DNA from: a virus
DNA: 49,429 nt
IMG/VR virus record: IMGVR_UViG_3300032897_000008
Span: 1 to 49,429 of that record
Strand: one strand, 5' to 3'
Shown: positions 579 through 35,314 of the stretch, piece by piece
How the letters are laid out: every line of letters starts with the position of its first letter
Numbering within the stretch: the first letter of the stretch is position 1
The notes under the pieces: generated by a model
The model's input: the letters and a program-made list of their open reading frames with translations, nothing else
Told to the model about the DNA's origin: nothing
Databases searched by the model: none
Made by a program: the position numbers and the translations under genes

Positions 579-2426
579 ATGAAGCTCTTCCGAATCACCC
601 GTACGAAGTCCAAGTGCTCGGTCTGTCCTCTGGATGGCTACTGCACGAAAGTGAGGGGGGAAAGTGTCACAGAGACGCCGAAGATCGCCTTCATCGGTGA
701 GGCACCGGGAGCGGAAGAGGACTCATCGGGTCATCCCTTCGTCGGCTCGGCGGGCAAGGAACTTGATCGAGTGCTCGCGAAAGCGGGGCTCCATCGCCAT
801 AACGCCTATCTTCTTAACGTCACGAATTGCCGACCGCCGGAGAATGATCTTCAGTCGCCTGAGGGCCAAGAAGCCGTCGTTGCTTGTCGTCCGGGCTTTG
901 AGGAGGAGCTTACGGCGCTCTGGAAACTCGGCGTCCATACGCTGGTTCCTCTCGGGGCGAACCCCCTCCGCGCTGTGGGCTTGGAAGGACCGATCCACAA
1001 AGTCCGTGGCTCTGTGTACGAAGTACAGGTGGCCGGCCTCAGCTTTTGGGCCGTCCCGACCTTCCACCCCTCCTACATCATAAGGGGCCAGTGGTCGGAA
1101 GAACCCACCATGGTCTCCGACGTAGCGAAGGCCGTAGACATCGCTCTGAAAGGGTACAGCCCGCCGAAGGAGAACTTCCTTCTCTTCCCAACGGTGAAAG
1201 ACATCGAGGTACGGGCAAAGGATCTCCTGAAGCGCAAGCCTCTTCTCGGCGTGGACATAGAGACCACGAGCCTCAAGCCCTGGGACGGGGAGATCTTCGT
1301 GGTGGCGCTGGCCGTGTCGGGCGAGGAGGCGTTTTCCATCCCCTTCTTCTCCCAAGGCTACAAGCCCTACTGGAAGAACGGAGACCTGCATGTCGTCCAA
1401 GACTGCCTGAGAGAGATCCTCGCGGCCTGCCCTACGATGTACCAGAACGCTCCGTTCGACGTGGGGTACCTCGAACATCACGGCTACCCGGTAGGTAGCA
1501 TCGCGCATGACGTTCTTCTCATCCACCACGCGATCCATCCTGAGCTTCCGCATCGTCTTGCGTACATCGTTTCGATTTACGGCGCCACCCCGTACTGGAA
1601 AGACGTCAAGTTTCCTGGGCAGAAGATGGGTGAGGTGGATGATGAGAAACTCAGGACGTACAACGCCAGAGATGCCGTGGTGCTCCATCAGGTGCTCCCG
1701 CCTCTCCTTGAGGATCTTAAGGACACGGGGACCGAGCACATCTACTACAACTACTCCTTAAGGCTCATCCGCCCCATCCTTTCCATCCAGAGGAACGGAA
1801 TGCTCTTGGACCGAAATCGACTCTCTAAATGGAAGAAGGAACTTGAACATGATCTCGCAGAGACAGAGCGAAAGCTACGCGACACCGCCGTACTTCCTGT
1901 GGGGTTCAACTTCCAGTCTCCCCATCATCTCTCATGGTGGTTCTACGGGGAAGCGCCGACAAGCCTCCCGAAGTGGAAGGCCGAGCTTGCAAGCTATGAG
2001 GAAGAAGGCACGCGAAAGAAGAAGGCTTCGGCCAGGTACAAGGATCTCGTCGATCGGGTGGCGATCTTTGAGAAGATCACACCTCTGGCCCGGTCTCGCT
2101 CCAAGACCAAGCGGACGAAGACTGGCTTCGCGAAGGACGAGAAGGCACTGCTTCTGGCAAAGCTTGCGGCGACTACTGAGATCGATCTCATCTCGCGTTT
2201 TCGCCGTCCGACGCCAGAACACCTCGCGCGGTTCGACGAGCTGACACATCTTCGCGATTGCCTCACTCTCTTTCAGAAACGGCAAAAGCTGGCCAAACTT
2301 CTTTCTACCTACACCGACTTCGAGACCGCACCCGACGGACGGGTTCACGCCGGGTTCAAGATCCACGGGACGGCCACGGGAAGGCTCTCTTCTGGAGAGG
2401 GCCAGGAAGAGAGTGAGAGCGTATGA
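579..2426 (+). CDS. Family 4 uracil-DNA glycosylase fused to N-terminal part of DNA polymerase I
   Basis: A 615-aa fusion. Residues ~10-190 are a family 4 (Fe-S) uracil-DNA glycosylase: C13-x2-C16 and C84-x18-C103 can bind the 4Fe-4S cluster, GEAPG (40-44) is the substrate motif and HPS (163-165) the second active-site motif. Residues ~215-390 are a DnaQ-like 3'-5' exonuclease with D226-x-E228 (ExoI), N290-x3-D294 (ExoII) and Y361-x3-D365 (ExoIII). The rest is the start of a family A polymerase, ending in TATGRLSS (motif before the palm), after which the frame runs off into about ten unrelated residues and stops. The missing palm/fingers continue in the 2926-3786 gene. The stop overlaps the ATG of an HNH gene (ATGA). 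The protein should excise uracil and, with its other half, copy phage DNA. Confidence 0.93.
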   Translation: MKLFRITRTKSKCSVCPLDGYCTKVRGESVTETPKIAFIGEAPGAEEDSSGHPFVGSAGKELDRVLAKAGLHRHNAYLLNVTNCRPPENDLQSPEGQEAVVACRPGFEEELTALWKLGVHTLVPLGANPLRAVGLEGPIHKVRGSVYEVQVAGLSFWAVPTFHPSYIIRGQWSEEPTMVSDVAKAVDIALKGYSPPKENFLLFPTVKDIEVRAKDLLKRKPLLGVDIETTSLKPWDGEIFVVALAVSGEEAFSIPFFSQGYKPYWKNGDLHVVQDCLREILAACPTMYQNAPFDVGYLEHHGYPVGSIAHDVLLIHHAIHPELPHRLAYIVSIYGATPYWKDVKFPGQKMGEVDDEKLRTYNARDAVVLHQVLPPLLEDLKDTGTEHIYYNYSLRLIRPILSIQRNGMLLDRNRLSKWKKELEHDLAETERKLRDTAVLPVGFNFQSPHHLSWWFYGEAPTSLPKWKAELASYEEEGTRKKKASARYKDLVDRVAIFEKITPLARSRSKTKRTKTGFAKDEKALLLAKLAATTEIDLISRFRRPTPEHLARFDELTHLRDCLTLFQKRQKLAKLLSTYTDFETAPDGRVHAGFKIHGTATGRLSSGEGQEESESV

Positions 2427-2914
2427 AACTGACAGTCATTTCGAGAAAGAACGAGTGCTACGAGGTTCTATTCGACGAAGGGGACGCTTACGAAATCCTT
2501 CAGCGAAAGTGGTACGTGTCAAATTGCAGGGGTCATTTCTACGCCAAAAGGTTCGAAGACGGGAAAGTCTTGTACATGCATCGTCTGATAGTAGGGGAAA
2601 CCCCAAGAGGCTTTGACGTTGACCACATCAACGGGAATGGGTTGGACAATCGAAGAAGCAACCTGAGAGTTGTTTCTCACAGCGAGAATCTTGCCAACAC
2701 AGGCCCTTCCAAAAAGAGGGCGACAAACGCAAGCCGATTCAAAGGCGTCTGGTTTGAACGCAGAACAGGGAAATGGTGCGCAAGCCTTACAGTGAAAGGC
2801 GTACGAAGAAACCTTGGTACCTTTCTATCTGAGGAGAACGCTGCAAGAGCATACAACAAAGCCGTAGAGGTCACCTTGGGGTCCGTAGGGTACCTGAACG
2901 GGGGTCTAACATAA
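2423..2914 (+). CDS. HNH homing endonuclease with AP2 domain, inserted in the DNA polymerase gene
   Basis: A 163-aa free-standing HNH endonuclease. The core is MHRLI then DVDHINGNGLDNRRSNL (about residues 52-85), typical of the HNH_3 group: the DH pair and the N-rich part coordinate the metal and the scissile phosphate. Residues ~100-150 (SRFKGVWFERRTGKW to AARAYNKAV) are an AP2-type DNA-binding domain, a common partner. It has its own ATG overlapping the upstream stop, and is clearly less GC-rich than its neighbours, a sign of recent arrival. It interrupts polymerase between two conserved motifs, as mobile endonucleases often do with genes for replication proteins. Confidence 0.93.
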   Translation: MKLTVISRKNECYEVLFDEGDAYEILQRKWYVSNCRGHFYAKRFEDGKVLYMHRLIVGETPRGFDVDHINGNGLDNRRSNLRVVSHSENLANTGPSKKRATNASRFKGVWFERRTGKWCASLTVKGVRRNLGTFLSEENAARAYNKAVEVTLGSVGYLNGGLT

Positions 2915-2925
2915 ACGCTCAAAAT

Positions 2926-3786
2926 TTGCCCGAGGATGCCCGAAAGGTCTTCGTCCCTGCCCCGGGAAATGCGTTCGTGTCGGGCGATTTCTCCAACCTT
3001 GAGCTTCGCGTCATGGCCTATGACTTCAAGGATGAAGTGCTTCAGAAGATGTTCGACGAAGGGAAGAACATTCACGACGAGAACACTAAAGCCATGTTCA
3101 AGATCACCCCTTCCCATCCCGGGTGGAAGCACATAAGGAAAGCCGCCAAGATCGCAGTGTTCGGTAGAAGCTTCGGAGGCGGGGTAAGAGGGATTTTCGA
3201 GCGGGTGAGTGCCAAGGTACCTGAGTTCAATTTCACGATGGCGATGTTTCGGGATGCTGACCGCCGTTACTTCGACGCCCACCCGGCCCTTGACAAAGGA
3301 TTCAAGGAAGCATCTTCCACAGCGCGACTCACTCGTGTCTGTACAACTGCGACGGGACGAAAGCGCTTCTTCCTCGGTGCTCCAGATGAGGTTGAGCGTG
3401 AAGGCATCAATACCCGTATTCAATCCGTCGCGGGGGACATCGAACACGAGTCCTTGATTGCTCTCTATGAGGAATGCGAGCGCCACCCGGGGTGGCTCCT
3501 CCTCTGGCCGATTCACGACTCGAACACGATCGAGTGTCCGATCTCCGACATCCCGCTCTGCGCCTCCACCATGAAGGCAATCATGGAGAAACCGCGCCAT
3601 CTCTGGGGAAAGACCGTGGTGTTCCCCGCCGATGTATCAGTGTCTACGACTTCCTGGGGAGAATTGAAAGCCTATGAAGAGTGGCTCAAGGACCAAAGCA
3701 CCTCCAGCGCACGCAAGCCCTCACTCCCACAACGGAAGCGAAAGCCTCACTCCCCCAAAGCCCGAGTACCTTCCCGTCGCGTATGA
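2926..3786 (+). CDS. C-terminal (palm/fingers) part of split family A DNA polymerase
   Basis: The 286-aa frame holds the polymerase active site: motif A VSGDFSNLELRV (D21, E26), motif B R71-x3-K75-x3-F79-x3-F83 and motif C PIHDSN (H197, D198). Homology to family A enzymes begins a few codons before the possible TTG start, with NAQNLP in the same frame at 2914-2931. There is no clear ribosome binding site at that TTG, so translation may restart after the HNH stop (2912-2914) or the protein may be joined by RNA splicing. E. coli Y766 corresponds to F83, and the E after the motif C Asp is a serine. The basic tail after about residue 255 overlaps the next gene by 113 bases. Confidence 0.88.
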   Translation: MPEDARKVFVPAPGNAFVSGDFSNLELRVMAYDFKDEVLQKMFDEGKNIHDENTKAMFKITPSHPGWKHIRKAAKIAVFGRSFGGGVRGIFERVSAKVPEFNFTMAMFRDADRRYFDAHPALDKGFKEASSTARLTRVCTTATGRKRFFLGAPDEVEREGINTRIQSVAGDIEHESLIALYEECERHPGWLLLWPIHDSNTIECPISDIPLCASTMKAIMEKPRHLWGKTVVFPADVSVSTTSWGELKAYEEWLKDQSTSSARKPSLPQRKRKPHSPKARVPSRRV

Positions 3787-5197
3787 TGAAGAGCGGGCAA
3801 AGAATCACTTCTGGAAGGCCGACCCTGGAGACGAGGTTCTCCCCAAGCGAAAAGGCTTCATCACTGACTGTGTGGCAAGACATCGGGGAAAGCAGGTCTC
3901 AACCCTCTACACCGTGTGGAGCACTCTCTTCATCCTCTCCACCGCCGTCAAGCGCGAGGCGTGGCTACGGTTCGGCGAGAACCACCTGTGGTCGAACTTC
4001 TACTGCATCCTTGTCGGCCCTGCCGGGATCGCGCACAAGGGAGAGGCCATCAACGATGCGGTCTCGATCCTCGAAGGTTTCCGTGACTACATCGAAAGCC
4101 CCGAGTTCGCCGTGATGAAGACCATCAACATCGTCGAGGACAAGGTCTCGCCCGAAGCGCTCCTCGAAGGCATCCACCCGAGAAACAAGCGCGTCCTCCT
4201 CCCCGGGATGTTCCGTGGCGCCTCGGGCTGTTACCTCAAGGACTCGAAGGGCAATCGCCTGAAGAATCCTGCAACGGGCCGTGACGCATGGTACTCGCTC
4301 ACCTCAGAGGCTGGGATCGTTGCGGGAGAGTTCGCCACCCTCGCAGGCCAGCAGCGCTACAACACCGGTCTCATCGATAACCTCCTTCGACTCTACGACT
4401 GCGACCGGCCATTCATCTGGCGCACCGTCAAGCGCGGGCGTCCCGTAGCCCTGAAGAACCTTCACACGACCCTCCTCGCCGGGACCACGATGACGGGGTT
4501 CCGCAGCTCGCTTTCCGACGCCGTACGGACCGACGGTTTCCTTTCCCGCTCCGCGATTGTCTACTGCCCGAAGACGCCCTTTCGCCGCTTCTCCCGCCCG
4601 CGCATCGTGGACGAAGCCCCGTCGAAAAAGGAACTCCAGCGACGGCTTGCCTGGATCACCGAGCACGCGGTAGGCGAGTTCGATCTCACCCCTGAGGCCG
4701 ACAAGTACTACGAGAAGTGGTACAACAAGTGGTGGGATGATCTGGAAGAGGACACGCAGTACCAGGGACTCAAGAGCCGCATCCACGTCCTCGTTCTCAA
4801 GATCGCGATGCTCCTTCGCATCCAGCGCTACGAGGTGGGGCCGAAACTTGTGGACAAGGATGACATCAAGGACGCGATTCATCTCATTCAGCGAACGTGG
4901 TTCGAGGCTCTCCCTGTCATGAAAGGCTTTGAGGCTGGGGATGAGAAGCCGTATCTTGGTCGTATGGAAGAGTACCTCCGCGAGCGTGGAGAGGTGACGA
5001 GGCAGAAGCTCCTTCGCCAGGGACACTTCACCACCCAGGAAGCGAAGGACGGGATCACGATGCTCGTGGACGAGGGAAAGGTCGAGATCCACCGGGGAGA
5101 GAAGATCTACCCCTATCCCTCATCCGATGGAAAGGAAATATATCGATGGACCGGAGAGAAGTGGCTGGGCTACCAAGACGTGGAGGCAGAGCAGTGA
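3674..5197 (+). CDS. DUF3987-type helicase-like replication protein
   Basis: A 507-aa protein whose layout matches the DUF3987 (YfjI-like) helicase-type family often found with primases: a P-loop-like GPAGIAHKGEA at ~115-125, a block SLTSEAGIVAGEFATLAG (~205-222), then a LLAGTTMTGF...GFLSRSAIVYCP block (~278-310), and a C-terminal winged-helix-like region (YLRERGEVTRQKLLRQGHFT). The P-loop ends in K-G instead of K-S/T. It follows DNA polymerase and overlaps its tail by 113 bases in another frame. There is no ATG, GTG or TTG in the next 40 codons, so 3674 is the only start that keeps the conserved part. It probably acts in DNA unwinding or initiation; no separate primase is recognisable. Confidence 0.8.
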   Translation: MKSGSRTKAPPAHASPHSHNGSESLTPPKPEYLPVAYDEERAKNHFWKADPGDEVLPKRKGFITDCVARHRGKQVSTLYTVWSTLFILSTAVKREAWLRFGENHLWSNFYCILVGPAGIAHKGEAINDAVSILEGFRDYIESPEFAVMKTINIVEDKVSPEALLEGIHPRNKRVLLPGMFRGASGCYLKDSKGNRLKNPATGRDAWYSLTSEAGIVAGEFATLAGQQRYNTGLIDNLLRLYDCDRPFIWRTVKRGRPVALKNLHTTLLAGTTMTGFRSSLSDAVRTDGFLSRSAIVYCPKTPFRRFSRPRIVDEAPSKKELQRRLAWITEHAVGEFDLTPEADKYYEKWYNKWWDDLEEDTQYQGLKSRIHVLVLKIAMLLRIQRYEVGPKLVDKDDIKDAIHLIQRTWFEALPVMKGFEAGDEKPYLGRMEEYLRERGEVTRQKLLRQGHFTTQEAKDGITMLVDEGKVEIHRGEKIYPYPSSDGKEIYRWTGEKWLGYQDVEAEQ

Positions 5198-5423: not shown

Positions 5424-5972
5424 ATGATCGCAAAGGAAGTCTCAACCTCGAAGCTGATTGCCGCCTACCGTCACTTCGGGTCACTCCGTCCGGCGGCTCG
5501 GTCCTGTGGGATCTCCAAGGACCTTGCCCGAAAGATCCTCATGGCGCAGGGTGTCGAGAAGCCCAAAGCCTTCTTTCCCAAGCGGCCTTCCTACAATCCC
5601 AAGCGGAAGTACTCTGACTTTGCCAAGTGGCACAAGGACCACGCCTCCGACCCCGACCTTCCCTTCTCTCTCAAAGAGATCGCCTCGCTCGCCGGGGTCT
5701 CGGAGAACGTGGCTCGGTGCTACTTCTACCGACGGCGGAAGCAGGCCAAAGCGATCCTCTCAGAGCTTCCCGACATCCGAAAGCTCGACCTCGTTCTCGA
5801 AGACATCGAGGGAAAGAAGTTCTCCTCCCGCTTACTCGGTCCCTACCACTACGCCATCCATCGCTACAGCCAGAGGGCGGCGATCCAGGGAAGCGTCGAG
5901 GGGAAAGAGGTGACCGTGGTGATCGCCTCGATAGATCAATTCGCCTCTCGCGTGAGGAAAGCTACAGCGTGA
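5424..5972 (+). CDS. Helix-turn-helix DNA-binding protein
   Basis: A 182-aa protein with two helix-turn-helix-like segments: residues ~20-42 (SLRPAARSCGISKDLARKIL) and ~82-108 (SLKEIASLAGVSENVARCYF followed by RRRKQ). The first resembles the resolvase/transposase-type HTH used to read out repeated DNA sites, the second a MerR/LacI-like turn. Lys- and Arg-rich linkers fit DNA binding. It ends in GTGA overlap with the methyltransferase, so the two are co-translated. It could regulate the early-to-late switch or guide the methyltransferase's expression; no enzyme domain is seen. Confidence 0.8.
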   Translation: MIAKEVSTSKLIAAYRHFGSLRPAARSCGISKDLARKILMAQGVEKPKAFFPKRPSYNPKRKYSDFAKWHKDHASDPDLPFSLKEIASLAGVSENVARCYFYRRRKQAKAILSELPDIRKLDLVLEDIEGKKFSSRLLGPYHYAIHRYSQRAAIQGSVEGKEVTVVIASIDQFASRVRKATA

Positions 5973-6691
5973 TCTACTTAGGGGATTGCTTGGAGATCAT
6001 GAAAAGTATTCCTTCTGAATCTATTGATCTCATCCTTTGTGATCTCCCATACGGAATCACTTCATGCAAATGGGACAGCGTAATACCGATTGAACCGCTC
6101 TGGCGAGAATACATAAGAATCACAAAGCCTGTCTCCGCAGTCGTTCTTACGGCATCGCAGCCCTTTTCATCAATGCTCGTGATGAGCAAACCGGAACTGT
6201 TCAAACATGAATGGATCTGGATCAAAAACCGAGGAAGCAATTTTGCCAACACGGTTAGGGAACCTTTCAAAGAGCACGAGCACGTTCTTGTCTTTAGCAA
6301 AGGAAAGTGGAAGTACAACAAACAGATGCAAGAAAGAACGGGAGCAGGACTTGCGAGGGTAAACTATGAATTTGATTTCAAAAGCAAGTCAGAGAACTAC
6401 AAGGACTTTGAAGGACGCAGCGAAGTCAAATTACCTGCCCTCCGAGTTCCCTCTTCTTGGCAGAAGTTCAACACCGATACAAGTGGTCTGCATCCAACAA
6501 TCAAGCCGGTAGAGTTAATGAAATACATGATCCTGACCTACACAGATGAAGGCGACACGGTCTTAGACAATGCAATGGGATCAGGAACAACAGGAGTTGC
6601 TTGCACTCAGACGAAGCGGAAGTTCGTTGGCATAGAGAAAGAAAAGAAGTACTTCGATGTAGCCAAAGAACGGATTGCTACTTCCCCTTGA
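5969..6691 (+). CDS. DNA (adenine or N4-cytosine) methyltransferase, beta class
   Basis: A 240-aa amino-methyltransferase. The catalytic DLPYG motif lies near the N-terminus (after VIYLGDCLEIM...SIDLIL) and the SAM-binding NAMGSGTTGVAC near the C-terminus, the motif order of the beta class. It would transfer methyl from SAM to an exocyclic amino group in DNA, probably to protect phage DNA from host restriction; there is no partner endonuclease. The GTG start at 5969 overlaps the previous stop. The open frame upstream to 5627 is a shadow of the HTH gene. The gene is distinctly AT-richer than the genome and probably acquired. Its end overlaps the convergent late operon by 14 bp. Confidence 0.93.
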   Translation: MIYLGDCLEIMKSIPSESIDLILCDLPYGITSCKWDSVIPIEPLWREYIRITKPVSAVVLTASQPFSSMLVMSKPELFKHEWIWIKNRGSNFANTVREPFKEHEHVLVFSKGKWKYNKQMQERTGAGLARVNYEFDFKSKSENYKDFEGRSEVKLPALRVPSSWQKFNTDTSGLHPTIKPVELMKYMILTYTDEGDTVLDNAMGSGTTGVACTQTKRKFVGIEKEKKYFDVAKERIATSP

Positions 6692-9600
6692 GGTCTGGTC
6701 GGACGGAGAATCCGCCTGCGGTGAGAAACGCGGCGTAGGGCTGTCCTGCCTCGATCTGCTTGATGACCTCGACGGCCTGAGTGACCTGGGAGCCCATGGG
6801 AGCGAGTGCGGTCACTTCCTTCATCGCCGTCTGAAGCTCCCTCTTCCCCGGCTGGCTCGATGAGAGATTCACCATGGCTTGCCAAAGCGGCCCACCCCGC
6901 AGTGTCACCACCCGCCACGGCATGAGGTTTCCTCCCGAAAGTCCCGCCATGCGATTGGCTCCGTAGAACGCGGCGGTGTTCTTCGCGAAAGTAGCAAGTG
7001 CCGCCGTACGGTCGAAGAAACCTCCCGACCCGGCAAGCCTCGTGAGCGCCGCCATGTAGTGGGTGGGAACGACGGTGAGCTGACCGAACATCTTTCCGAG
7101 GATGCCGGTGTTAAGCGCCCTTCCCTGGTCCTCGGGGCGGAAGCCGAAGGCGATCTGGTCGGTCATGTTCTGCGCGTAGGCATGCTTCGCTCCCTCGTAG
7201 TCGCCTTGAGAGAGAAGCGTCTCCACTTGATCGAGGGCTCCCGGATCAAGCCGGAAGGCCTTGATCGCTTTCGCTTTCTGGGTCCAGTCCCCGACCTTCC
7301 CTCGATCGAACCACGCCTGGAGGTTTCGATCGAAAAGCCACGAGGCGGAGTCGTAGACCCCGGCCCGCCCGAGGATATGCCCGTTCTGGACGAAGTACCC
7401 CGAGGCTTTCCCCAGGCGGTTGAAGAGACTCGCGAAGGCGCTTCCGCTTCCCGCTGCCTCGTTGAACCCGTACATCGGGACCTTGCCCGTGAACACGCCC
7501 TTCTGGAAGAGATCCTTGAGATGGTCCAGCCCTCCATCGGAAGCCGCCTTGAACCCCCGGTTCATCGCTTCGGTCCCGAGGAAGCCCGACCCGAGGAGGT
7601 AGTTGTGTTCAAGAATGGTGAGCGCACTGGAGGGTCGGAATCCGTACGCACCCATTCCCGCCGCCGTCTGGAGGTAGGAGAAGATGTTTGCTTGGGGTCC
7701 CGGTCCGTCCTTTCCCAGCGCTTTCAAGACCTCCAAGGCTTCACTGTGAGTCCCGTTGAGTGCCTCGTCGATGTAGTGCTTCCCGAGGAGTTGAACGTGC
7801 TTCGGGACATCAGGCTGGGAAAGGCGCTCTGCGAAATCCTTGAAGTTCTCTACCGCGTACGCCCAGCGGTTTGCCATCTGCGAGTACCCGATGAACTTCG
7901 AGATCGCGTTCTGGTCTTTAAGAATCCCGTCCACGTCAGCCACGCGCTCGTACTGAGACGCATACCCGAGGTCCTTCGGAATCCTCCCTCCATAGACCCG
8001 GTTGATGAGCTGTCGCATTCCGTCGGGACCCGAAAGTTCCATGTCTTGGTAGGCTTTGGGGTTCGCCTCTTTCCAATCGTGGACTTTCTTCGCGTAGTCC
8101 ACAAGCATGATATCGGGGTCCTGACCGGTCCGTGTGTAGGAGGCGTTGTAGAGCTGCCGAAGCCTTGAGGCTGCATCCTGGATTTGTGCCCGCTTCGGCG
8201 AGCCCTCGGTGTAGCCCAAGTCCTCAAGCGTCCGCTGTCGGTCCTCTTCCCCGAGGGACTGCATCACCTTGTCCACGGCCATCCAGTCTTTGTCTGAGAG
8301 GTTGTAGAGTCGCTCGATGGAAAAGGCCTTTTGAGCGTCCACGTAGGTCTGGTTGCTCGCGGCCTTGATCCCCTCACCGACTTTCGAGAACGTCCTCCCC
8401 AAGCCCTTGATCCCGTACTCCACCTCAGCTCGGGCGATCGAGGTTCTTGCCGGTGCCATCCAATCAGAGATCACCGACCTGATATGAGAGATCTCTTGGC
8501 CGAGCTTTGACCGACCCGCGTACTTCCCAATTGGGATCACATCCGAGGCGAGCTTCGGTGAGTCGGCGCTGTTCTTAAGCGTCACCCCCGCGTCGAACTG
8601 CCCACCGGGTGCCCACCTCAGGTCGGGGGTCTTCGCAAGGATCTTCCCTACCTCATCCATGGAGTGAACGGTGTAGGTTCCCGTCGCATCCGATAGGACA
8701 TACCCGCGCTTGGGGTCGTAGGTGAAGGCAAAGCCTCTCTCGTTTGCGATCCGTGAGGCGTTGTCGTATTCCTTGTACTTGCCGTTGAGGTACTCGTGGG
8801 CTTCCGCCGAGGAGGCAAACCGTTCCCGTATTCCCCACGCAGGAATCTCCACGGTGTACGCCCCGTCGTGATCGGAAGTGAGCCTGCCATCTCCCGTGGA
8901 AGCAACCGTTTTCCTTCCTTCCTCCGCCGCCACGTCCATGAACTGCGAGGCGAACTTGTAGACATCCCGAAGGCTCCCGCTCACCCCATCGCCCGAGTAC
9001 TGAAAGCGCGAACCCTCGGGAAGGATCTCGATGTTTCGAGGCCCAAAGCGACCGTCGAGAAGCTTCGGCCGGTACTTGGCTTCCCACATCGCCTGGGCCG
9101 CGTTGGCCCCAGAGCCCAGCACCTTCCCGTCCGTGTCGAGGATCGAGTACTGTCCGCCTTCCTGGCGGAGCGACATTCCTTCGCTCTCAAGGCTTGCGCG
9201 AAGATGGGAGGGCGTCGTCGAGCGAAGCAGAAATGCATCGGTCACCTCATCGAGTGATCCCTGAAACGGCGGGTAGCCTTTCATCGAAAGCGCGTAGTTG
9301 TCGGTGCCGAACTTGGCGATGTTTCCGGTTCCTTCCCGCGCCACCGCGTTCATGAACCACTCGGCTCGCTCCTGAGGCCCCAAGCCCTCCGGTGCCCGGT
9401 ACATCGTCGGCCGCTCTGGAGTCATGGCCGATGCCCCGCCAGCGGTGGGAAGCTCTTCTGGAGCGGTGTATTCCCTCGACCACTTGTTCACGAACTCGGT
9501 GACGTGTTTGATTTGCTCCCTCGGGTAGAGTGCCGTCACCGACCCGTCAGCGTGCTCGATGGCGTCGTAGCCTCCGTCCCGAAGCTTCCAGAAGGCGAGG

Positions 9601-11471
9601 TCCTCGCGCGTCCCCTCCGCGCCCTTCTTGAGCGCCTGGTCGGCCCACGAGAGCGAGGCCTGCCACACCCCGTCGGGTGCGGCCTTCCCGTAGACGATCG
9701 CCCCGTTGTAGTCCCCCGAGGTGACGGTCTGAAGGTTCGTCGGACGGTCGGTGGGAAAGAGCGCTCCCTGCTTCTCGATGTTGGAAAGGCCTTCTCTCGG
9801 AACGTCCACGGAGATCCGAGCGACTTTCATCCCGTTAGCCTGAAGCTGCCCCACCTCGCCGTAGGAGAGCATCGGGCCTTCGGAAAGACCCTTCGCCGCG
9901 CCCTCGGGCCGAAGCCTCTCCATGTTTCCTTCTATGATCGTGAGGGAGTCCCGTATCGCCCGGTCATGAGGGAAAGCATCCTGGAGGGCGTTCAGATGCA
10001 TGTCGTGGGATTGGACTTGGCGAAGGTCCTCCTTGCCGCCTTTCTCTTCCCACGCGGCCTGCCACTTGGCTCCCTGCGCCCGCTCCTGTTCGATGGCATC
10101 CGCCCACTGTCCGTGCGATACCATCTCGGCCTCAGGAAGGGTGAGATGCTCACCAAGAAGCTCTCCACCCCGTCCGAGACTCGTCCGCATCCGCCACGTG
10201 TTAGGCCCGTCGGATACCATCGAAACGCCGAGAGGCCTCTGGCTGTCGGAAAGAATGAAGGTATTCGCGACCTTCATCGAGGCCACCGGGTTGTCCATGA
10301 GGGCCATGGGATTCTCGCGCGAGTAGTCCAGTGCCTCCGAGTAGTTCTGAGCCCAATCCTTTGCCGTTGCCCCGAGCTGGCTCCGTGCGGCGGGGTCCAC
10401 GTTCCCCTTGAAAAACTGGTCCTGGAGCCTCGCGGCCTCAGGAGTGTACTCCCCCCCTGCGGTCTTCTCGAACATCTCCGCCTTTGGAAGCGCTGCTCCC
10501 CCTTTTCCCAAAACCGAGCTTTTGAAGGTTCGAAGGATTCGTCCTACTCCTTCGGCCGCTCCCTGTCCCAGCATCCCGAAGGCCGCATCCTGCGCAGCCC
10601 ACTGGCCCCAAAGAAGCCCGATGCTCTTCACCGTCTCCACGATCCCGTGGGAGGTATCCGTTGCCCCCTCGATTGGGGCCACCCCGGGTCGGGCCGCATT
10701 CACCGCTTCTGCCGCCTCGCCCCGGATCACCCCGAGGGTGCCGGTCACCGCCGCGCGTGCTCCCACCTTCGCAAGAGCAGAGGCGCCTTCGGCCACGGGA
10801 GCCGCCTCTCCTACGCCCTTCATCGCAAGGAGGTCCGTCCCGTATCCCAGCACCGACCCAAGGACCTGTGTGGGTGTCTGCCCTCCGATGAGAGGAATCC
10901 CTGTGGTGATAGGTCCAATCTTGACCGTTGAGGGAAGCGCTGTCTCGTACTTCCTCTGAAGGTATGCGGCGAGCTTCACTCCATCCTTGTCCCCCGCGAT
11001 GGCCCGGGCCATGAGTTCGTCAGGGGTTGCGTTCTGAAGATCCGTCCGGGTCTCCGCGCCTCCAGAGAAGAACTTCCCCACGTCCGTCACCGCACCTGAA
11101 AGCGCCCGCCCCGCGTTCACCACTCCACGCGTGAGGAGTCCCGTCGAGCCCATCTGCGTGTCCATGTCGTAGAGAAACCGAAGGGTCTTCCCCTGTCCTG
11201 TGGGGCTCTCAAGAACCTGTCGGAGGTTCTCGTAGCGGGTGTCGGCGAAGGCGGGCGGATAGAGGTCCTTCACGCGCTTCAGCGCTGCGATCTTCATGTC
11301 ATCCGGGGCCTGTTGCCACGCAGGGCTTGATGCCGCCTTGGAGGCAAAGAGTTGCATCCGCGCCCGCTGCTGGTCCTCGTAGGAGAGGTCCCGAAACTTC
11401 GGGTCCATCATCTGGACGGCGAACGGATTCGGTGCCTGCCGTCCCGGCTGCTGCGCGTAGGGGTCGGACAT
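6678..11471 (-). CDS. Very large internal virion (ejection) protein, 1597 aa
   Basis: The largest gene and the last of the late operon. The product is 1597 aa, with Ala/Gly-rich hydrophobic stretches (~160-290: repeated VGARAAVTGTLG-like segments, and ~1330-1520) and long amphipathic helices between them. It matches no enzyme I can name; the composition is like the large polyvalent/internal core proteins of podoviruses, which are ejected with the DNA and cross the envelope. It stands where T7 places gp16, after two smaller proteins in gp14- and gp15-like positions, but I see no transglycosylase motif. The 3' end overlaps the DNA methyltransferase by 14 bp. Confidence 0.85.
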   Translation of the reverse strand: MSDPYAQQPGRQAPNPFAVQMMDPKFRDLSYEDQQRARMQLFASKAASSPAWQQAPDDMKIAALKRVKDLYPPAFADTRYENLRQVLESPTGQGKTLRFLYDMDTQMGSTGLLTRGVVNAGRALSGAVTDVGKFFSGGAETRTDLQNATPDELMARAIAGDKDGVKLAAYLQRKYETALPSTVKIGPITTGIPLIGGQTPTQVLGSVLGYGTDLLAMKGVGEAAPVAEGASALAKVGARAAVTGTLGVIRGEAAEAVNAARPGVAPIEGATDTSHGIVETVKSIGLLWGQWAAQDAAFGMLGQGAAEGVGRILRTFKSSVLGKGGAALPKAEMFEKTAGGEYTPEAARLQDQFFKGNVDPAARSQLGATAKDWAQNYSEALDYSRENPMALMDNPVASMKVANTFILSDSQRPLGVSMVSDGPNTWRMRTSLGRGGELLGEHLTLPEAEMVSHGQWADAIEQERAQGAKWQAAWEEKGGKEDLRQVQSHDMHLNALQDAFPHDRAIRDSLTIIEGNMERLRPEGAAKGLSEGPMLSYGEVGQLQANGMKVARISVDVPREGLSNIEKQGALFPTDRPTNLQTVTSGDYNGAIVYGKAAPDGVWQASLSWADQALKKGAEGTREDLAFWKLRDGGYDAIEHADGSVTALYPREQIKHVTEFVNKWSREYTAPEELPTAGGASAMTPERPTMYRAPEGLGPQERAEWFMNAVAREGTGNIAKFGTDNYALSMKGYPPFQGSLDEVTDAFLLRSTTPSHLRASLESEGMSLRQEGGQYSILDTDGKVLGSGANAAQAMWEAKYRPKLLDGRFGPRNIEILPEGSRFQYSGDGVSGSLRDVYKFASQFMDVAAEEGRKTVASTGDGRLTSDHDGAYTVEIPAWGIRERFASSAEAHEYLNGKYKEYDNASRIANERGFAFTYDPKRGYVLSDATGTYTVHSMDEVGKILAKTPDLRWAPGGQFDAGVTLKNSADSPKLASDVIPIGKYAGRSKLGQEISHIRSVISDWMAPARTSIARAEVEYGIKGLGRTFSKVGEGIKAASNQTYVDAQKAFSIERLYNLSDKDWMAVDKVMQSLGEEDRQRTLEDLGYTEGSPKRAQIQDAASRLRQLYNASYTRTGQDPDIMLVDYAKKVHDWKEANPKAYQDMELSGPDGMRQLINRVYGGRIPKDLGYASQYERVADVDGILKDQNAISKFIGYSQMANRWAYAVENFKDFAERLSQPDVPKHVQLLGKHYIDEALNGTHSEALEVLKALGKDGPGPQANIFSYLQTAAGMGAYGFRPSSALTILEHNYLLGSGFLGTEAMNRGFKAASDGGLDHLKDLFQKGVFTGKVPMYGFNEAAGSGSAFASLFNRLGKASGYFVQNGHILGRAGVYDSASWLFDRNLQAWFDRGKVGDWTQKAKAIKAFRLDPGALDQVETLLSQGDYEGAKHAYAQNMTDQIAFGFRPEDQGRALNTGILGKMFGQLTVVPTHYMAALTRLAGSGGFFDRTAALATFAKNTAAFYGANRMAGLSGGNLMPWRVVTLRGGPLWQAMVNLSSSQPGKRELQTAMKEVTALAPMGSQVTQAVEVIKQIEAGQPYAAFLTAGGFSVRPDLKGK

Positions 11472-28857: not shown

Positions 28858-29185
28858 CTTCCTTCTCCTCGAAGCGCATCTTGGCAAGCTCGATGAGGGT
28901 GTTATACGCCCGGGTGTAAGCTTTCGCCTCCCCCTGTCTCACTCTCAACTCCTTGTCCGAGACCGCTTCGCTTTCCAACGCAGCCTTCGCCACTTCCAGT
29001 CCATCGACGATCAAGACCTCTTGGAGCAATTGCCAGTACTCGCTACCCCGCAGGCCCCGCGCCAACTCCGCTAACCTGCGGAGCACCCGGGATTGCTCCT
29101 TGTACTGGGGGTCCGCCAGCTCCTGCGGGTCCAGCGCCATTAGGAGCGACAGGGACTCCGGCCTGTCCTCCAGGATTCCCGCCAT
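28838..29185 (-). CDS. Small helical protein overlapping the portal gene, 115 aa
   Basis: Starting at ATG 29185 with a strong GGAGGTGGAGGGT, this 115-aa product is acidic and helical (LADPQYKEQSRVLRRLAELA, ALESEAVSDKELRVRQGEAK). It overlaps the last 143 bases of the portal gene in another frame, and the scaffold gene at its end by 20 bases. The portal region here is a Gly/Pro-rich tail that tolerates overlap. It could be an assembly factor between portal and scaffold. Confidence 0.6.
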   Translation of the reverse strand: MAGILEDRPESLSLLMALDPQELADPQYKEQSRVLRRLAELARGLRGSEYWQLLQEVLIVDGLEVAKAALESEAVSDKELRVRQGEAKAYTRAYNTLIELAKMRFEEKEDGKAGD

Positions 29186-31124
29186 ACCCTCCACCTCCCA
29201 TTTGATTCCGTGCAGCATCCAGGGCACTCATCTGTTGGGCGTTCACTGCTCTCAACATCTGAATGACTTTCTCCCACTTCTTCACATCCTGAAGGTAATT
29301 CTCCGTGTCATCGAAATCCGCGAAGTGATAGCTCTCTTTTAGCAGGTTCACGCTTCCCACATAGATCTCAAGCAGTTGCGCCCACGCATCCGGCGCGGCG
29401 GCTTTCAATTGCATCCCTTGAGGCCCAAAGACGACCTGGGAGAGCTGGACGAGCTGCGGCTGGGCCTGGAAGGTCAACTCCATGAGCTGGATGAGGGTCT
29501 CCCTCCGCGCCTCGTAGGAGTGCTCGATGTCCGTCGTGTAGATGTCGAACTTAAAGCGCCTCGGAATATCACTCACATCCATGTTGAGGATTCGGTCCAG
29601 TTGGGTGATCTCCTCATCCGTGAGCCGTCCAAGCTGTCTCTCGTTCCAGATCACCCGCTCACGGTTCCTCACGAGCTGAAAGACGACCAGAAGTCCTACC
29701 CGCGACCAGCTCTCCGACGTGCTCTCAATCGTCGTCGCCATGATACCTTGAGACGCCTGCATTCGCATCTCTTGCCCTCGAAACGTATCCCGCGTCCCGA
29801 GGGTCGGGTCGGCAAAGCCCCGGTCGGGAGAAGAGACTCCCGTGGCCTGAGCGGCAAGCGACCAGACGAGGTTTTCACTCTGAAGGCTTGAGGCCGGCAC
29901 CTCCCCGAGAGCGATCGGCTCCATGTCCTCCTTCGGGTTGTCGGTGATCCAGACCTTTCCCTGATAGATCGTGTTCTTGTTTTCCCGAAGCACCGCCCTC
30001 CTCACCGCGAGCATCTTGATCGATGCGAGCTTCATCCCGTCGTTTCGAAGGCGGTGAGTGCCCGAGGCCTCGTCCTGAAGGCCCTCGCAGATCTGCCCGA
30101 TCCCCCGGGACTCCAGCATGAAGCTCCGCGGGATGTATCCGAACTCCTGGAACTCCCGCGCGGCGATCCCGTTGAAAACCTTCCGAAGGATCGTTCGTGA
30201 GGGCACGTGGATGGTGAAGATCACGTCCTCCCACACCCCGTCATCGTCGATGTCCCAGAAGAAGTGAAACTCCATGAGGTCGATGACTTTCGGGCTTCCC
30301 GGCGCGAGATACCTCAGCTTCGCGTTTGCCTGCTCGCTCTCATTCAGGTTTTCGCGCTCCCAGTTCTTCGGATCAATCTCCTTTCCATCCGAGGTCTTCG
30401 GCTCGTCGTAGATCCCCTGTTCGACCTTGTTTTCAAACTCATGAAGGGGGAGATGAAGCTCGTGCGCGATCCACGGCATCCGCTGGATCTCGTCCCAGAA
30501 CGGCGGATAGTACGTATCTTCCTGCGAGATCGGGATGATCGCCGGCCCGTCGTGATACGTCATCGTTTTCGTCTCGCCATCGTCGCCCTTGAACTTCCAT
30601 TCAAGGGTGTCCCACACGACTTTCACCATAAGCAATCCCATGAACGTCGCCTCGTCGCTCACGATGCGCTTGATCTTTGGCATATTCAGATCCGTCTGGG
30701 AGTAGGCAAGAATCCCGAGGTACTTCGTCATGAACTTCGCGTCATCGTGGCTTTCCTGGGTGTCCGCGTAGCTTTTCAATTGCCAGAAAAACGGCTTTCC
30801 CGTGTCGTAGTACCCCTTCACCTTCGCGTAGGCCGTTTGGGCATGGATTTGTGTGAGCGGAGGCATGATCCGGGAGGCATTCGAGAGTGCGTGCTCGGCC
30901 GCAGTGGTCTCCGGCTGGGCTTCCCGCTGCTGGCGCCACTTCATCCACTTCTTCACGCGCTCCGAGCGCTCGCTTTTCGCCTCTTCAAGCTCCTGGAGGA
31001 GATAATTCAAGATTTCATCGCGCTTCTCATCCGAGAGTTCGATCGTCAGCGGGCTCGGCGAGGGCCGATCCGCCTTCGGCGTCTCATCATCGGTCGTGAT
31101 TTCTATCGTCGTGGGGTCACTCAT
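29043..31124 (-). CDS. Portal protein
   Basis: A 693-aa portal: long N-terminal helix (LTIELSDEKRDEILNYLLQE), then the portal core (KVWDTLEWKFKGDD region, WDEIQRMPWIAHELHLPLHE), wing and stem helices, and an extended C-terminal Gly/Pro/Ala-rich tail from about residue 640. The length fits podovirus portals. It lies 12 bases downstream of the large terminase, the usual order. The tail overlaps the next gene. Confidence 0.88.
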   Translation of the reverse strand: MSDPTTIEITTDDETPKADRPSPSPLTIELSDEKRDEILNYLLQELEEAKSERSERVKKWMKWRQQREAQPETTAAEHALSNASRIMPPLTQIHAQTAYAKVKGYYDTGKPFFWQLKSYADTQESHDDAKFMTKYLGILAYSQTDLNMPKIKRIVSDEATFMGLLMVKVVWDTLEWKFKGDDGETKTMTYHDGPAIIPISQEDTYYPPFWDEIQRMPWIAHELHLPLHEFENKVEQGIYDEPKTSDGKEIDPKNWERENLNESEQANAKLRYLAPGSPKVIDLMEFHFFWDIDDDGVWEDVIFTIHVPSRTILRKVFNGIAAREFQEFGYIPRSFMLESRGIGQICEGLQDEASGTHRLRNDGMKLASIKMLAVRRAVLRENKNTIYQGKVWITDNPKEDMEPIALGEVPASSLQSENLVWSLAAQATGVSSPDRGFADPTLGTRDTFRGQEMRMQASQGIMATTIESTSESWSRVGLLVVFQLVRNRERVIWNERQLGRLTDEEITQLDRILNMDVSDIPRRFKFDIYTTDIEHSYEARRETLIQLMELTFQAQPQLVQLSQVVFGPQGMQLKAAAPDAWAQLLEIYVGSVNLLKESYHFADFDDTENYLQDVKKWEKVIQMLRAVNAQQMSALDAARNQMGGGGYGGNPGGQAGVPVAPNGAGPAGAGGPPVQGAIPGAPQVSGVGAGPAG

Positions 31125-31136
31125 CTCGTTTCTCCC

Positions 31137-32930
31137 TTAATACCCGAAGAGCGAGTCGTTTTCGACGAGCGAAAGCTCGTGTTCGATGTCGCTTTCCACC
31201 GCCATCTCGATCTCCTCGGCGTTCGCCGGCCGTCTCATCCACGAAAGTGCCTTCTCCGTCTCATCAAGCACATCTACCCGGCGCGAGGGAAAGGCATCTT
31301 TCTCCTGTTGGATCTCGATCACCGCCTCAGGTGTAGCATAGATGAGGCCTTGCGCGAAATACCACCCCACGACCGCTCGTATCCGGGCAATCTTGTCCCC
31401 CTTCGCCGGCGCCTCACGGAGAGAGATGTAGACTTTCCTCCGCTCCTGCTCTTTTTCCAAAAGTTGATAGAGTCCTTTCTGCATCGCGTTGGTCTCGAAG
31501 AGCGTCGCCTGGAGCAATCCCGGGAAAAGACTCCACGCTTCGAAGATCGCATCGAAGGTTTCGTCCATCGTCAGGTATCCGACCTTGTTCCAGACCCGAA
31601 AGGCGCGGTTTCCATCGTCCATGAACCACACGGCTATGGACGTTCGCGACGTCAGAGCCGTCACCTCTCGATCCTTCGAGGCCGCGTCGGTCGAGATCAC
31701 GCCCGTGAGGGTGGCGCAGTTGAGTGTTTTCACCTCGTCGGAAAGCTCATCTCGATATGAGAGAAGGAAAAGGTTGCTCTTCTTGTCCTCGAAAAGCTTG
31801 CAGGGCTTCACGACGTACTTCGTGAACTCGTTCAGGCCCGATTTCTGCGGCTTATTCCAGTACTGAAGCGCTGCCGTCCAGGAGTCGAGCTTCGAAAGCT
31901 GCTTCTCGTCGATGACTTCCGGGGCAAGCATCTCGCCTTCTTCCTGCACGAGTCGATAGTAGATGCTCCAAGTCCCTCCGGGCATGGGCCCCACGTCCTC
32001 ATCCATCGCCCCGACGACCTCTTTTGCGTCTTTGACGAACGCCGCGTAGCAATCATCCTGGGAGTATCGCGTCCCGACAACCCCAATCCGTCCACGCTTG
32101 GCACTTCGGAGCAACGCCGAGAGGTTCGTGTTCATGTACTTCTTGGCGTTCTCCATCATGACGGTGGCTTGATACTGCCAGTCAACAGCGTCCAGTCCGA
32201 TCGGGTCATCGATATCGAGGTCGGTGAAGTGGTCTCCTTCGCCGGAAGACGTGATGCCCGAAGCTTTGATCGTCGGCTCTGCGGCAAAGCGTACCCGATT
32301 GGGCATCACGATCACTTCACCGTTCCATTCCTTCGAGTTCGGAACGGGAACGCGCGAGGGAATCGGAGTGCCGTCGGGAAACTCCCACTGAGGGCCATAG
32401 AGCGCCGCGTAGAGGGCGTTGGAGTCGATGGTTTTCTTGGAAAGATTCTTGAATCCTTCGGCCCGTGAGATAACCGCATTCACGAGGTTGATCGCAACGC
32501 TTGAATCCCTCGTTGCCATCCACGTGTTCGCCCCGTGAGAGAAGATCGAGGACTTGCCGTGTCCACGTGGCATGAGGGCGAGCCATCGAGACCCGGGAGC
32601 CATGCAGGAATCGCTCTGCCGCCAGTTGCACATGTCGAGATTCAAGGTGTCGTTGAGCCACTCGTAGGGACCGAACGCTCCCGCGATGACTTTCAGGAAA
32701 AACCACAAGTTCACGAGACCGGCCTGTCGCATGACATCCATAGTTTGACGCGACGAGGTGGTCGGGTGGGAGGAAGTGATGTCGGCGTAGAGATCGGTAA
32801 GGACTTTCTGACCGGTAGAGAAGTTCGGAAAGTCCCATGCCTCGGGATGCGGCCGGATGGCAAAGTGCGAGGGAATCTCGAAAGTGAGAAGAGAGCCGTC
32901 GTCGGATGCGATCCTCTTGTAGGTTTTCAC
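31137..32930 (-). CDS. Terminase large subunit
   Basis: With GTG at 32930 (overlapping the previous stop as GTGA) the product is 597 aa. Walker A is LMPRGHGKSS (K126), Walker B-like DLDIDDPIG follows, and VISTDAASKDREVTALTSR with later DETF and D/E residues fits the RNase H-type nuclease domain. The frame open to 33098 is a shadow of two small upstream genes. The enzyme powers DNA packaging and cuts the concatemer; it partners with the candidate small subunit upstream. Confidence 0.9.
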   Translation of the reverse strand: MKTYKRIASDDGSLLTFEIPSHFAIRPHPEAWDFPNFSTGQKVLTDLYADITSSHPTTSSRQTMDVMRQAGLVNLWFFLKVIAGAFGPYEWLNDTLNLDMCNWRQSDSCMAPGSRWLALMPRGHGKSSIFSHGANTWMATRDSSVAINLVNAVISRAEGFKNLSKKTIDSNALYAALYGPQWEFPDGTPIPSRVPVPNSKEWNGEVIVMPNRVRFAAEPTIKASGITSSGEGDHFTDLDIDDPIGLDAVDWQYQATVMMENAKKYMNTNLSALLRSAKRGRIGVVGTRYSQDDCYAAFVKDAKEVVGAMDEDVGPMPGGTWSIYYRLVQEEGEMLAPEVIDEKQLSKLDSWTAALQYWNKPQKSGLNEFTKYVVKPCKLFEDKKSNLFLLSYRDELSDEVKTLNCATLTGVISTDAASKDREVTALTSRTSIAVWFMDDGNRAFRVWNKVGYLTMDETFDAIFEAWSLFPGLLQATLFETNAMQKGLYQLLEKEQERRKVYISLREAPAKGDKIARIRAVVGWYFAQGLIYATPEAVIEIQQEKDAFPSRRVDVLDETEKALSWMRRPANAEEIEMAVESDIEHELSLVENDSLFGY

Positions 32931-33112
32931 CGAAGCGTTGCCAGATCCTCGGCGCTTACCCGACCGTTTCTGACGTAGGGTTGGCGCCACGCATAGTTGT
33001 GCGCTTGCGCGGTCAGCTTGAAGGCCTCGGGAGAGAGGTAGAAGGACGGAGGGAAGACCGCGAGAACGGCCCCACCGGCGAGACGGATGCGGGTCCAACC
33101 GAAGGGAATCAT
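32927..33112 (-). CDS. Small hypothetical protein, 61 aa
   Basis: A 61-aa protein, starting MIPFGWTRIRLAGGAVLAVF and ending RNGRVSAEDLATLR. It sits between the 51-aa gene and the large terminase, coupled on both sides (ATG overlaps the 51-aa stop, stop overlaps terminase GTG). It has a short hydrophobic stretch but no clear membrane helix. Possibly a packaging accessory protein. Confidence 0.68.
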   Translation of the reverse strand: MIPFGWTRIRLAGGAVLAVFPPSFYLSPEAFKLTAQAHNYAWRQPYVRNGRVSAEDLATLR

Positions 33113-33925: not shown

Positions 33926-34309
33926 TTACTTGGCCTCCTCGGAGGTACCGTCCCGCAGGCGCTCGAGGAGGCTCTTGGCCGTCTCCACCTGATTGCTTCC
34001 CCAGGGGGTGCCGCATTTCGCGCAGGTATAGGTGATGTCCAAGATGGCTTCGGGAAAGGGCTCGGTCATGTCGGGGACCTGGATGGTCTTGAAAGAAGGC
34101 TTGGGGAAGTCCTCGGGGTTAAGAGAACAGGAGCACTTCTGGCGAAAGGAGATCCGCACGGGCCATCCGTCTTTCTGCTTTCCAAGAGATGAGTAGCATG
34201 GAAATGACTTGGGGTCAACAGCAGAGTGGTAACGACGGATGTGTTGTCTTACGTCCTGGGGTCGATAACGGGAGGGACATACTCCCGCCGCCAACATGCC
34301 GTTTCCCAT
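33926..34309 (-). CDS. First late-block protein with zinc-ribbon-like Cys pairs
   Basis: The frame is open to 34345; ATG at 34309 gives a 127-aa product and ATG at 34297 one of 123 aa, and no start is decided by a clear ribosome binding site. Cys pairs lie at FPCYSS, CSCSLNP and TCAKCGTPW, suggesting a zinc site. It is the first gene transcribed leftwards from the divergent control region, so it may be regulatory. Function unknown. Confidence 0.6.
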   Translation of the reverse strand: MGNGMLAAGVCPSRYRPQDVRQHIRRYHSAVDPKSFPCYSSLGKQKDGWPVRISFRQKCSCSLNPEDFPKPSFKTIQVPDMTEPFPEAILDITYTCAKCGTPWGSNQVETAKSLLERLRDGTSEEAK

Positions 34310-34513
34310 TTCGCTCTCGGCCGGCCGCCGTCGCAAAGCCGGCAATCGCGTGTGCCAGTATCCCGGCCCTCGCGCCGGCGCGTGTTCGCGCCTGAGACCT
34401 GGGTCCTACCCCACGCCGTCAGAGCTCTTGCGGCCCACTCCGTCGAACGCGTGTTAGGTGATGGTCTCATCCCACCCCGTCCACGCGTCGGCTCGCGTAG
34501 CTGTCACGCGCTT

Positions 34514-34541
34514 CCATCGTCGAACAGTGCGCCGACGATGG
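34514..34541. repeat. Inverted repeat, 9-bp perfect arms
   Basis: Arms CCATCGTCG and CGACGATGG with a 10-base loop. It lies ahead of the leftward block, possibly an operator or RNA hairpin in the leader of the late transcript. Confidence 0.7.
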
Positions 34542-34552
34542 CGAAAACCACT

Positions 34553-34568
34553 GTAACCACGTGGTTAC
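34553..34568. promoter_or_regulatory. Perfect 16-bp palindrome, candidate operator
   Basis: GTAACCACGTGGTTAC is its own reverse complement, and is followed at once by the near-palindrome GTTAAC. On the minus strand TTGGTT, then about 16 bases, then TACAGT flank it, so a repressor or activator here could control the late promoter; that promoter is a weak match. Confidence 0.65.
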
Positions 34569-34634
34569 GTTAACCAATTTGTGAAACGAAAACCTTTCGC
34601 ACGTTCTCATGGCATTCTCGTAAAAGACGCGAAT

Positions 34635-34686
34635 TACATAACTCTATACTACATAACTACTTACTACTACTTTTCTACTACTTTTC
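34635..34686. repeat. AT-rich direct repeats (iteron-like)
   Basis: TACATAACT occurs at 34635 and 34650, and TACTACTTTTC is repeated in tandem at 34665-34675 and 34676-34686. They lie in the most AT-rich part of the window. Such repeats next to a DnaA box resemble an origin's unwinding element and iterons. Confidence 0.7.
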
Positions 34687-34807
34687 TCCCCTTTTCGCGT
34701 AATTCTCAATCCAACGGCACTTTATATAACACGGGTTTGGAGATATTGGACAATGTTGGGGCCCGAAACGTTCGCGATGAGAAAACGCGAAAACGCCCCT
34801 TTTACCC

Positions 34808-34816
34808 TGTGGATAA
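34808..34816 (-). promoter_or_regulatory. Perfect DnaA box
   Basis: TGTGGATAA on the plus strand is the exact complement of the consensus DnaA box TTATCCACA. It is the only one I found here, in the centre of the AT-rich control region. Confidence 0.75.
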
Positions 34817-34972
34817 CTATCCTAACTCACGTAGTGACGGTGGTTTACAAAATTCGCGTAAAAAACGAGAATTTCGCGCGAACGCGCGAACGTTCCAGGT
34901 CTACCACTCCACAACCGTATAGGCATCTATCCGTCTTTGAGACAAAAATCTCGCTTTTTTTCTTCCACCTGA

Positions 34973-35001
34973 TTGACCGCTCTTTTCGTCTCTGATACAC
35001 T
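34973..35001 (+). promoter_or_regulatory. Sigma70-type promoter for the rightward early block
   Basis: TTGACC (34973-34978), 17 bases, then TACACT (34996-35001). The -35 box matches five of six consensus bases and the -10 box four of six, with ideal spacing. Transcription would start near 35008, ahead of the first rightward gene (ATG 35135). Confidence 0.7.
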
Positions 35002-35086
35002 CTCCAATGTCAATTCGTTCTTTTACATACCAAGCGTTGTTTTCCTCACGGCGTGTCGGATGCAAGCGGAAGCCGAACGCCGTAGA

Positions 35087-35109
35087 AAACAAACACGTTG
35101 TGTTTGTTT
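35087..35109 (+). promoter_or_regulatory. Perfect 10-bp hairpin in the leader of the first early gene
   Basis: AAACAAACAC, loop GTT, GTGTTTGTTT: all ten pairs match. It lies between the promoter and the ribosome site (GGAGG, 35123-35127) of the first rightward gene. It could be a dimer operator or an mRNA 5' hairpin that slows decay. Confidence 0.75.
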
Positions 35110-35134
35110 CATCCTTTCCTTCGGAGGTTTAGAA

Positions 35135-35314
35135 ATGAACAACGAAAGACTTTACGGATTGCGCGACACTCTTACGGATGAATGGTTGTGCGAGGTTAAC
35201 GGCGATTCATCCTGGGATATCGAAGGCGAGCCGATGCTACTTACAGAATCGGAGGCAATCCGGCAAGCACGGATAACTACTCGCGGAACCCAAATTGTAC
35301 GGATACGCGCATGA
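35135..35314 (+). CDS. First early protein, 59 aa
   Basis: Starts MNNERLYGLRDTLTDEWLCE after GGAGG, and follows the promoter, so it should be the first protein made. It is small, acidic and beta/helix mixed, with LTESEAIRQARITTRGTQIV at the end. Its stop overlaps the next start (ATGA). Early genes of this kind often inhibit host proteins; no motif supports a specific target. Confidence 0.75.
   Translation: MNNERLYGLRDTLTDEWLCEVNGDSSWDIEGEPMLLTESEAIRQARITTRGTQIVRIRA

Follow-up and report, generated by a model that had tools for sequence, protein, structure and literature searches.

What does the DNA between two diverging gene blocks of an uncultured phage do: does it only control transcription, or does replication also start there? 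We address this question for positions 34310-35134 of IMG/VR record IMGVR_UViG_3300032897_000008, the whole of which (49,429 nt) is the window analysed here. The terminal 127 nt of the record are identical at both ends, and end repeats of 114-127 nt are also present in several relatives, which would fit a circular-mapping genome (a 49.3-kb record) assembled with a k-mer overlap at its ends. On the minus strand, a leftward block carries the portal (29043-31124), terminase (31137-33098) and tail genes; on the plus strand, a rightward block, starting at 35135 and continuing across the end of the record as far as 6.7 kb, encodes an exonuclease, a Sak4-like ATPase, a UDG-family-A polymerase, a DUF3987 protein and a DNA methyltransferase. 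Since the ATG start codons of the flanking leftward and rightward ORFs lie at 34309 (-) and 35135 (+), respectively, 34310-35134 is the entire intergenic region, and it fits exactly the boundary between terminase-side and replication-side genes. A ribosome-binding site (GGAGG) and the first rightward ORF, of 59 aa, together occupy 35121-35314 (+). Comparison of 9 kb around the region with named phages by megablast gave no match, and neither did Rfam and tRNA scans of the whole window.

The first-pass annotation had described this region as a putative origin and divergent control region, AT-rich, with a perfect DnaA box, two repeat sets, inverted repeats and a promoter, and separating the two gene blocks; all of these sequence elements are confirmed. 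The record's GC minimum over 500-nt intervals falls inside it (interval starting at 34541, GC 0.43 vs 0.588 overall), an interval in the methylase region being a near second (GC 0.444). The repeat sets are a 15-nt tandem at 34635-34667 and an 11-nt tandem, ACTACTTTTCT, at 34656-34687 (+), the latter an imperfect, CTA/CTT-rich and DnaA-trio-like run that is kept in the close relative L002; the record's two copies of CTACTACT both fall within this region. The inverted repeats pair 34596-34635 with 34851-34890 (73%) and 34762-34776 with 34885-34899 (87%), and correspond to inverted clusters of the word TTCGCG. The copies of this word were absent from the first-pass annotation: there are 8 in 34560-34910 where 0.48 are expected, a number reached by none of 1000 dinucleotide shuffles. 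Counted as iterons TTCGCG/TTCTCG, the sites span 34615-34890 (34615+, 34628-, 34694+, 34771+, 34786-, 34853+, 34866-, 34873+, 34877- and 34885-), partly as inverted pairs, and are kept in L002. By an unsupervised 7-mer scan alone, the region ranks third within the window. A hairpin, GTAACCACGTGGTTAC (34553-34568), was dropped as a candidate, L002 showing no conservation of it.

Searches with the terminase yielded 7 and then 43 IMG/VR loci, plus one named record, BK063670, with identical gene order, and about 20 of the relatives found in this way have a similar region at the same position. The terminase of L002/G001 is 98% identical to that of the window over the aligned part, and here the gap remains partly alignable, with retention of the TTCGCG sites, the CTACTACT run, a block at 34717-34752, the DnaA box, the promoter and a palindrome at 35087-35109. 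At terminase identities of 71-78% and below the gap is unalignable, so that features held in common at this distance constitute independent evidence. Most relatives show short iterons flanking an AT-rich core, in lineage-specific words (TTCGC, GTTAGCG, TTTATCC, TGTTATA and TGCATTTT), the word being picked per genome after inspection. The copies form small clusters spaced by 8-11 bp, and in several genomes (the window, L014, L023 and G011) the copies on the two sides of the core are oriented towards one another. An alternating TATATA core is present in 13/18 relatives. With linear records scanned only between the start of the terminase and the end of the contig, the strongest 7-mer cluster of the scanned sequence lies in the gap in G002 (GGATAAA), G003 (TATAACA), G004 (TAACTAA), G011 (CGCTAAC), G012 (TAGTACA) and G016 (AATTATG), and the second-strongest does so in G001, G014 and W01. 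That relatives whose gap is unalignable show the arrangement of AT-rich core, iterons and promoter at the syntenic position argues well for the proposed combination of an origin with a divergent control region. In BK063670, a separate, strong GCCGCTA cluster at about 9382-10081 holds 9/10 of that record's copies, away from the proposed origin.

The rightward early block has a sigma-70-like promoter, TTGACC-17-TACACT, at 34973-35001 (+). A simple promoter scan found 2 promoter-like sites compared with 0.9 in shuffles, and conservation is therefore the better evidence: the promoter is retained in L002, and like promoters occupy the same place in relatives. On the minus strand, the block CTTTATATAACACGGGTTTGGAGATATTGGAC (34717-34752), a candidate leftward promoter, is identical in L002; TTGGAGATATTGGA also occurs in L022, and TGTCCAATATCTCC in L025. 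A 15-mer common to L025, TGTCCAATATCTCCA, was set aside as a wider marker, because its more than 100 IMG/VR matches are at chance level for a 15-mer and it is evidence inside the family only. The perfect palindrome AAACAAACACgttGTGTTTGTTT (35087-35109) lies in the 5' leader between the early promoter and the ribosome-binding site, and may be an operator or a hairpin; it is conserved in L002, at a differing distance from the promoter.

When the cores of 18 relatives were searched for motifs, 13 yielded the AT-alternating run and most yielded a 25-bp dyad, whose motif score of 111 compares with 59-62 for shuffled sequence (four controls). A matrix built without the window places the dyad (25/26 bp, TAACTCTATACTACATAACTACTTAC) at 34639-34664 (+), overlapping the trio-like run, with 28.4 bits; the next best site in the record reaches 13.2. 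It is also found near the gap in G015 and G017, which lie outside the matrix set, and in 9/14 family members it stands 7-501 nt upstream of a rightward promoter (308 nt in the window). The pattern TAAyTCCTTAynnCAyAAnnAnTTA matches 57 IMG/VR contigs, as compared with 2 for a letter-reversed control. By locus, 4/57 belong to the phage family studied; the others are from unrelated phages, where the dyad precedes TTGAC-N-TAGAAT promoters by about 20-33 nt, or are perfect palindromes that closely follow the 3' end of tRNA genes. No match was obtained by blastn among cultured phage and plasmid records (short queries are insensitive in such searches), and we did not find the pattern in the literature. 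These distributions suggest a putative site for a probably widely shared binding factor, and point to a DNA-binding factor, as yet unnamed, common to many uncultured phages. As to arrangement, in six unrelated contigs (L249, L252, L258, L275, L285 and L289) different tRNA genes are followed, at 5-10 nt on the 3' side, by near-perfect palindromes, TAATTCCTTATnnCATAAGGAATTA; several large phage contigs, L241, L243, L250 and L254 among them, carry such dyads in pairs, separated by about 25 nt and with spacers rich in GC, and L254 has three copies.

The first-pass annotation had further suggested that the host's DnaA starts replication here. The single TTWTNCACA of the 49,429 nt is the DnaA box at 34808-34816 (-), TTATCCACA; allowing one mismatch gives 5 matches record-wide against 4.3 by chance, so weight can be placed only on the perfect site and its location. 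L002 has TTATGCACA, the sole difference inside the box falling on the N of TTATNCACA. The cores of the 18 relatives contain 9 copies of TTATNCACA where composition predicts 0.78 (a roughly 11-fold excess), with at least one box in 6/18 cores (0.76 expected) and a density per length 15-fold over the rest of the records, in a set that includes a few near-duplicate records. Tandem boxes occur in G002, L025 and L026, and in L003/G002 a long (AGT)n array adjoins two boxes. Judged by these counts and by its persistence in L002, the box is statistically real and selected. The 12/18 cores that have no box indicate that it is not a family requirement.

A second candidate for opening the DNA is the DUF3987 protein (3674-5197, +; Pfam 4e-12), which alone among the DNA-binding replication proteins is present in all complete relatives. 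Its AlphaFold2 model (mean pLDDT 73.7) resembles MCM ATPases (Z 20.0, 287 residues aligned, 3.6 A, 13% identity) and would place a C-terminal winged helix at residues 427-492; a sequence profile matches MCM5 weakly (E 0.045). No classical initiator was seen, the window proteins scanned giving no RepA/RepE-family match. Across relatives, iteron type follows winged-helix similarity weakly (rho 0.25, vs 0.17 for the rest of the protein), and the iteron words shared by the window and G001, by G003 and G004 (TGTTATA) and by G014 and G017 are compatible with that similarity. DUF3987 proteins are common in phages and, to our knowledge, helicases by prediction only. A published analysis predicts helicase activity for DUF3987 and proposes that related primase-helicase proteins recognise origins through their C-terminal winged helices (PMC5862659). 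The MCM-like DUF3987 protein, acting on the iterons, would be a better candidate than DnaA for the main opener, and host DnaA a plausible helper rather than the main driver.

We therefore favour, as probable though by no means secure, the reading that 34310-35134 is a replication origin fused with a divergent early control region, opened by the DUF3987 helicase on iterons with DnaA as a helper. The MCM-like helicase would bind the TTCGCG iterons through its C-terminal winged helix, assemble around the AT-rich core and then melt it, starting bidirectional forks for the family-A polymerase that the phage itself encodes; both this polymerase and DUF3987 belong to the block driven from the region. 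Host DnaA at 34808-34816 may assist the opening or the recruitment of host primase or helicase, the rightward sigma-70 promoter at 34973 would start the early block, and the dyad upstream of it could be a site for a regulator or for the initiator. Support for this fused origin comes from the iteron clusters, the TATATA cores, the eight TTCGCG copies, the DnaA-box excess, the conserved DUF3987 and the precedent of SaPI elements; against it count the skew minimum 7.5 kb off, the weak covariation, the third rank in the 7-mer scan, a helicase gene about 18 kb away on the circle, and an iteron word chosen post hoc. Concerning skew, the first-pass annotation had proposed a switch at the region as a test of its origin: the window's detrended GC-skew minimum lies instead at about 42.2 kb, a result of limited weight given that gene direction also switches at the region and the skew range is small.

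Of the alternatives, a purely transcriptional role deserves the most attention, and we regard it as unlikely. Iterons, dyad and palindrome would then be operators for phage or host regulators at divergent promoters, with replication starting elsewhere; the conserved promoter, the position of the window's skew minimum and the dyads placed 20-33 nt upstream of strong sigma-70 promoters in unrelated phage contigs speak for this. Such a role leaves unaccounted for the over-representation, in this same gap, of DnaA boxes and long AT-alternating cores, and 6-8-bp iterons with one-turn spacing around an AT-rich core are typical of origins; 11 genomes moreover have their skew minimum within 10 kb of the gap (0.6-9.3 kb), a proximity confounded by gene direction. 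The stronger form of the first-pass suggestion, in which DnaA on its box melts the CTA/CTT-rich run as at a bacterial oriC, appears more improbable still. The uniqueness of the box, its change in L002 at the N position only, the trio-like run itself and the (AGT)n array beside two boxes in L003/G002 speak for it, but DnaA-driven oriC regions have several boxes and the window has one, the run lies about 120 nt from the box and agrees neither in side nor in polarity with the box-trio order of Bacillus subtilis, and a core without a consensus box is seen in two thirds of the relatives. The first-pass suggestion of a host-DnaA-dependent start is in part supported, DnaA being a plausible helper and an improbable driver.

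That the box is a chance match in the phage of an archaeal host seems very improbable. This idea rests on the record of the nearest named relative, BK063670, which is labelled Methanomicrobiales; yet sigma-70-like sequences such as TTGACA-17-TATGAT stand at operon starts in BK063670 and at least 7 relatives, and the relatives' cores have the DnaA-box excess described above. BK063670 itself has TTGACA-17-TATGAT (noted at 1318 and 541-610) and the DnaA box TTATGCACA, which makes its host label look doubtful. Scans for the terminase and DUF3987 in 84,980 bacterial and archaeal genomes found no relative.

Among known systems, the preferred DUF3987-opened origin most resembles those of SaPIs, whose Rep reads iterons with its C-terminal domain and whose origin is thought to take two hexamers (PMC7581432). 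Shared with SaPI Rep/ori, and with Cch and Cch2 of SCCmec, are a helicase encoded by the mobile element with a C-terminal DNA-binding domain, here an AAA+ protein whose winged helix is seen in the model, and a short-iteron origin, with multiple short iterons around an AT-rich segment. The SaPI origin lies directly downstream of the helicase gene, unlike the arrangement here; the candidate initiator contains DUF3987 and not DUF927 or D5, and the phage has DnaA boxes, the family dyad, its own genome and a family-A polymerase. Phage P1 oriR combines iterons, an AT-rich core and accessory DnaA boxes, with DnaA aiding the phage's own initiator. Iteron plasmids show the same combination, and in them DnaA assists the initiator that the replicon encodes (PMC10797057). 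An accessory box is found here too; the candidate initiator is itself a helicase, and the proteins scanned include none of RepA/RepE type. The B. subtilis oriC shares a DnaA box and a CTA-type triplet run in an AT-rich region, and differs in box number and in how box and triplets are spaced, on which side they lie and in which polarity. Lambda ori also has phage iterons adjoining an AT-rich segment, which sit inside the initiator gene O, whereas the region studied here lies between genes and a long way from those for replication.

More tentatively, and with less confidence than we place in the fused origin itself, we propose a previously undescribed phage lineage with an MCM-like DUF3987 origin of constant layout and an iteron word varying between genera, together with a 25-bp dyad, likewise so far undescribed, that is common to unrelated phages, lies upstream of early promoters and whose factor is probably host-encoded. 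The family would form a natural series of cognate helicase/origin pairs with differing iteron words, through which origin recognition by DUF3987 becomes directly testable.

Two further observations concern the rightward block. An HNH/AP2 homing-endonuclease ORF (2423-2914) splits the UDG and family-A polymerase gene (579-3786, +) into parts 579-2426 and 2926-3786; this is probably an intron or an insertion of a comparable kind, with a related ORF in G001 and G006 and none in G002-G004. The N6/N4 DNA methyltransferase (5963-6691) has no homologue in any fetched relative, including the near-identical G001, which suggests that it was acquired recently.
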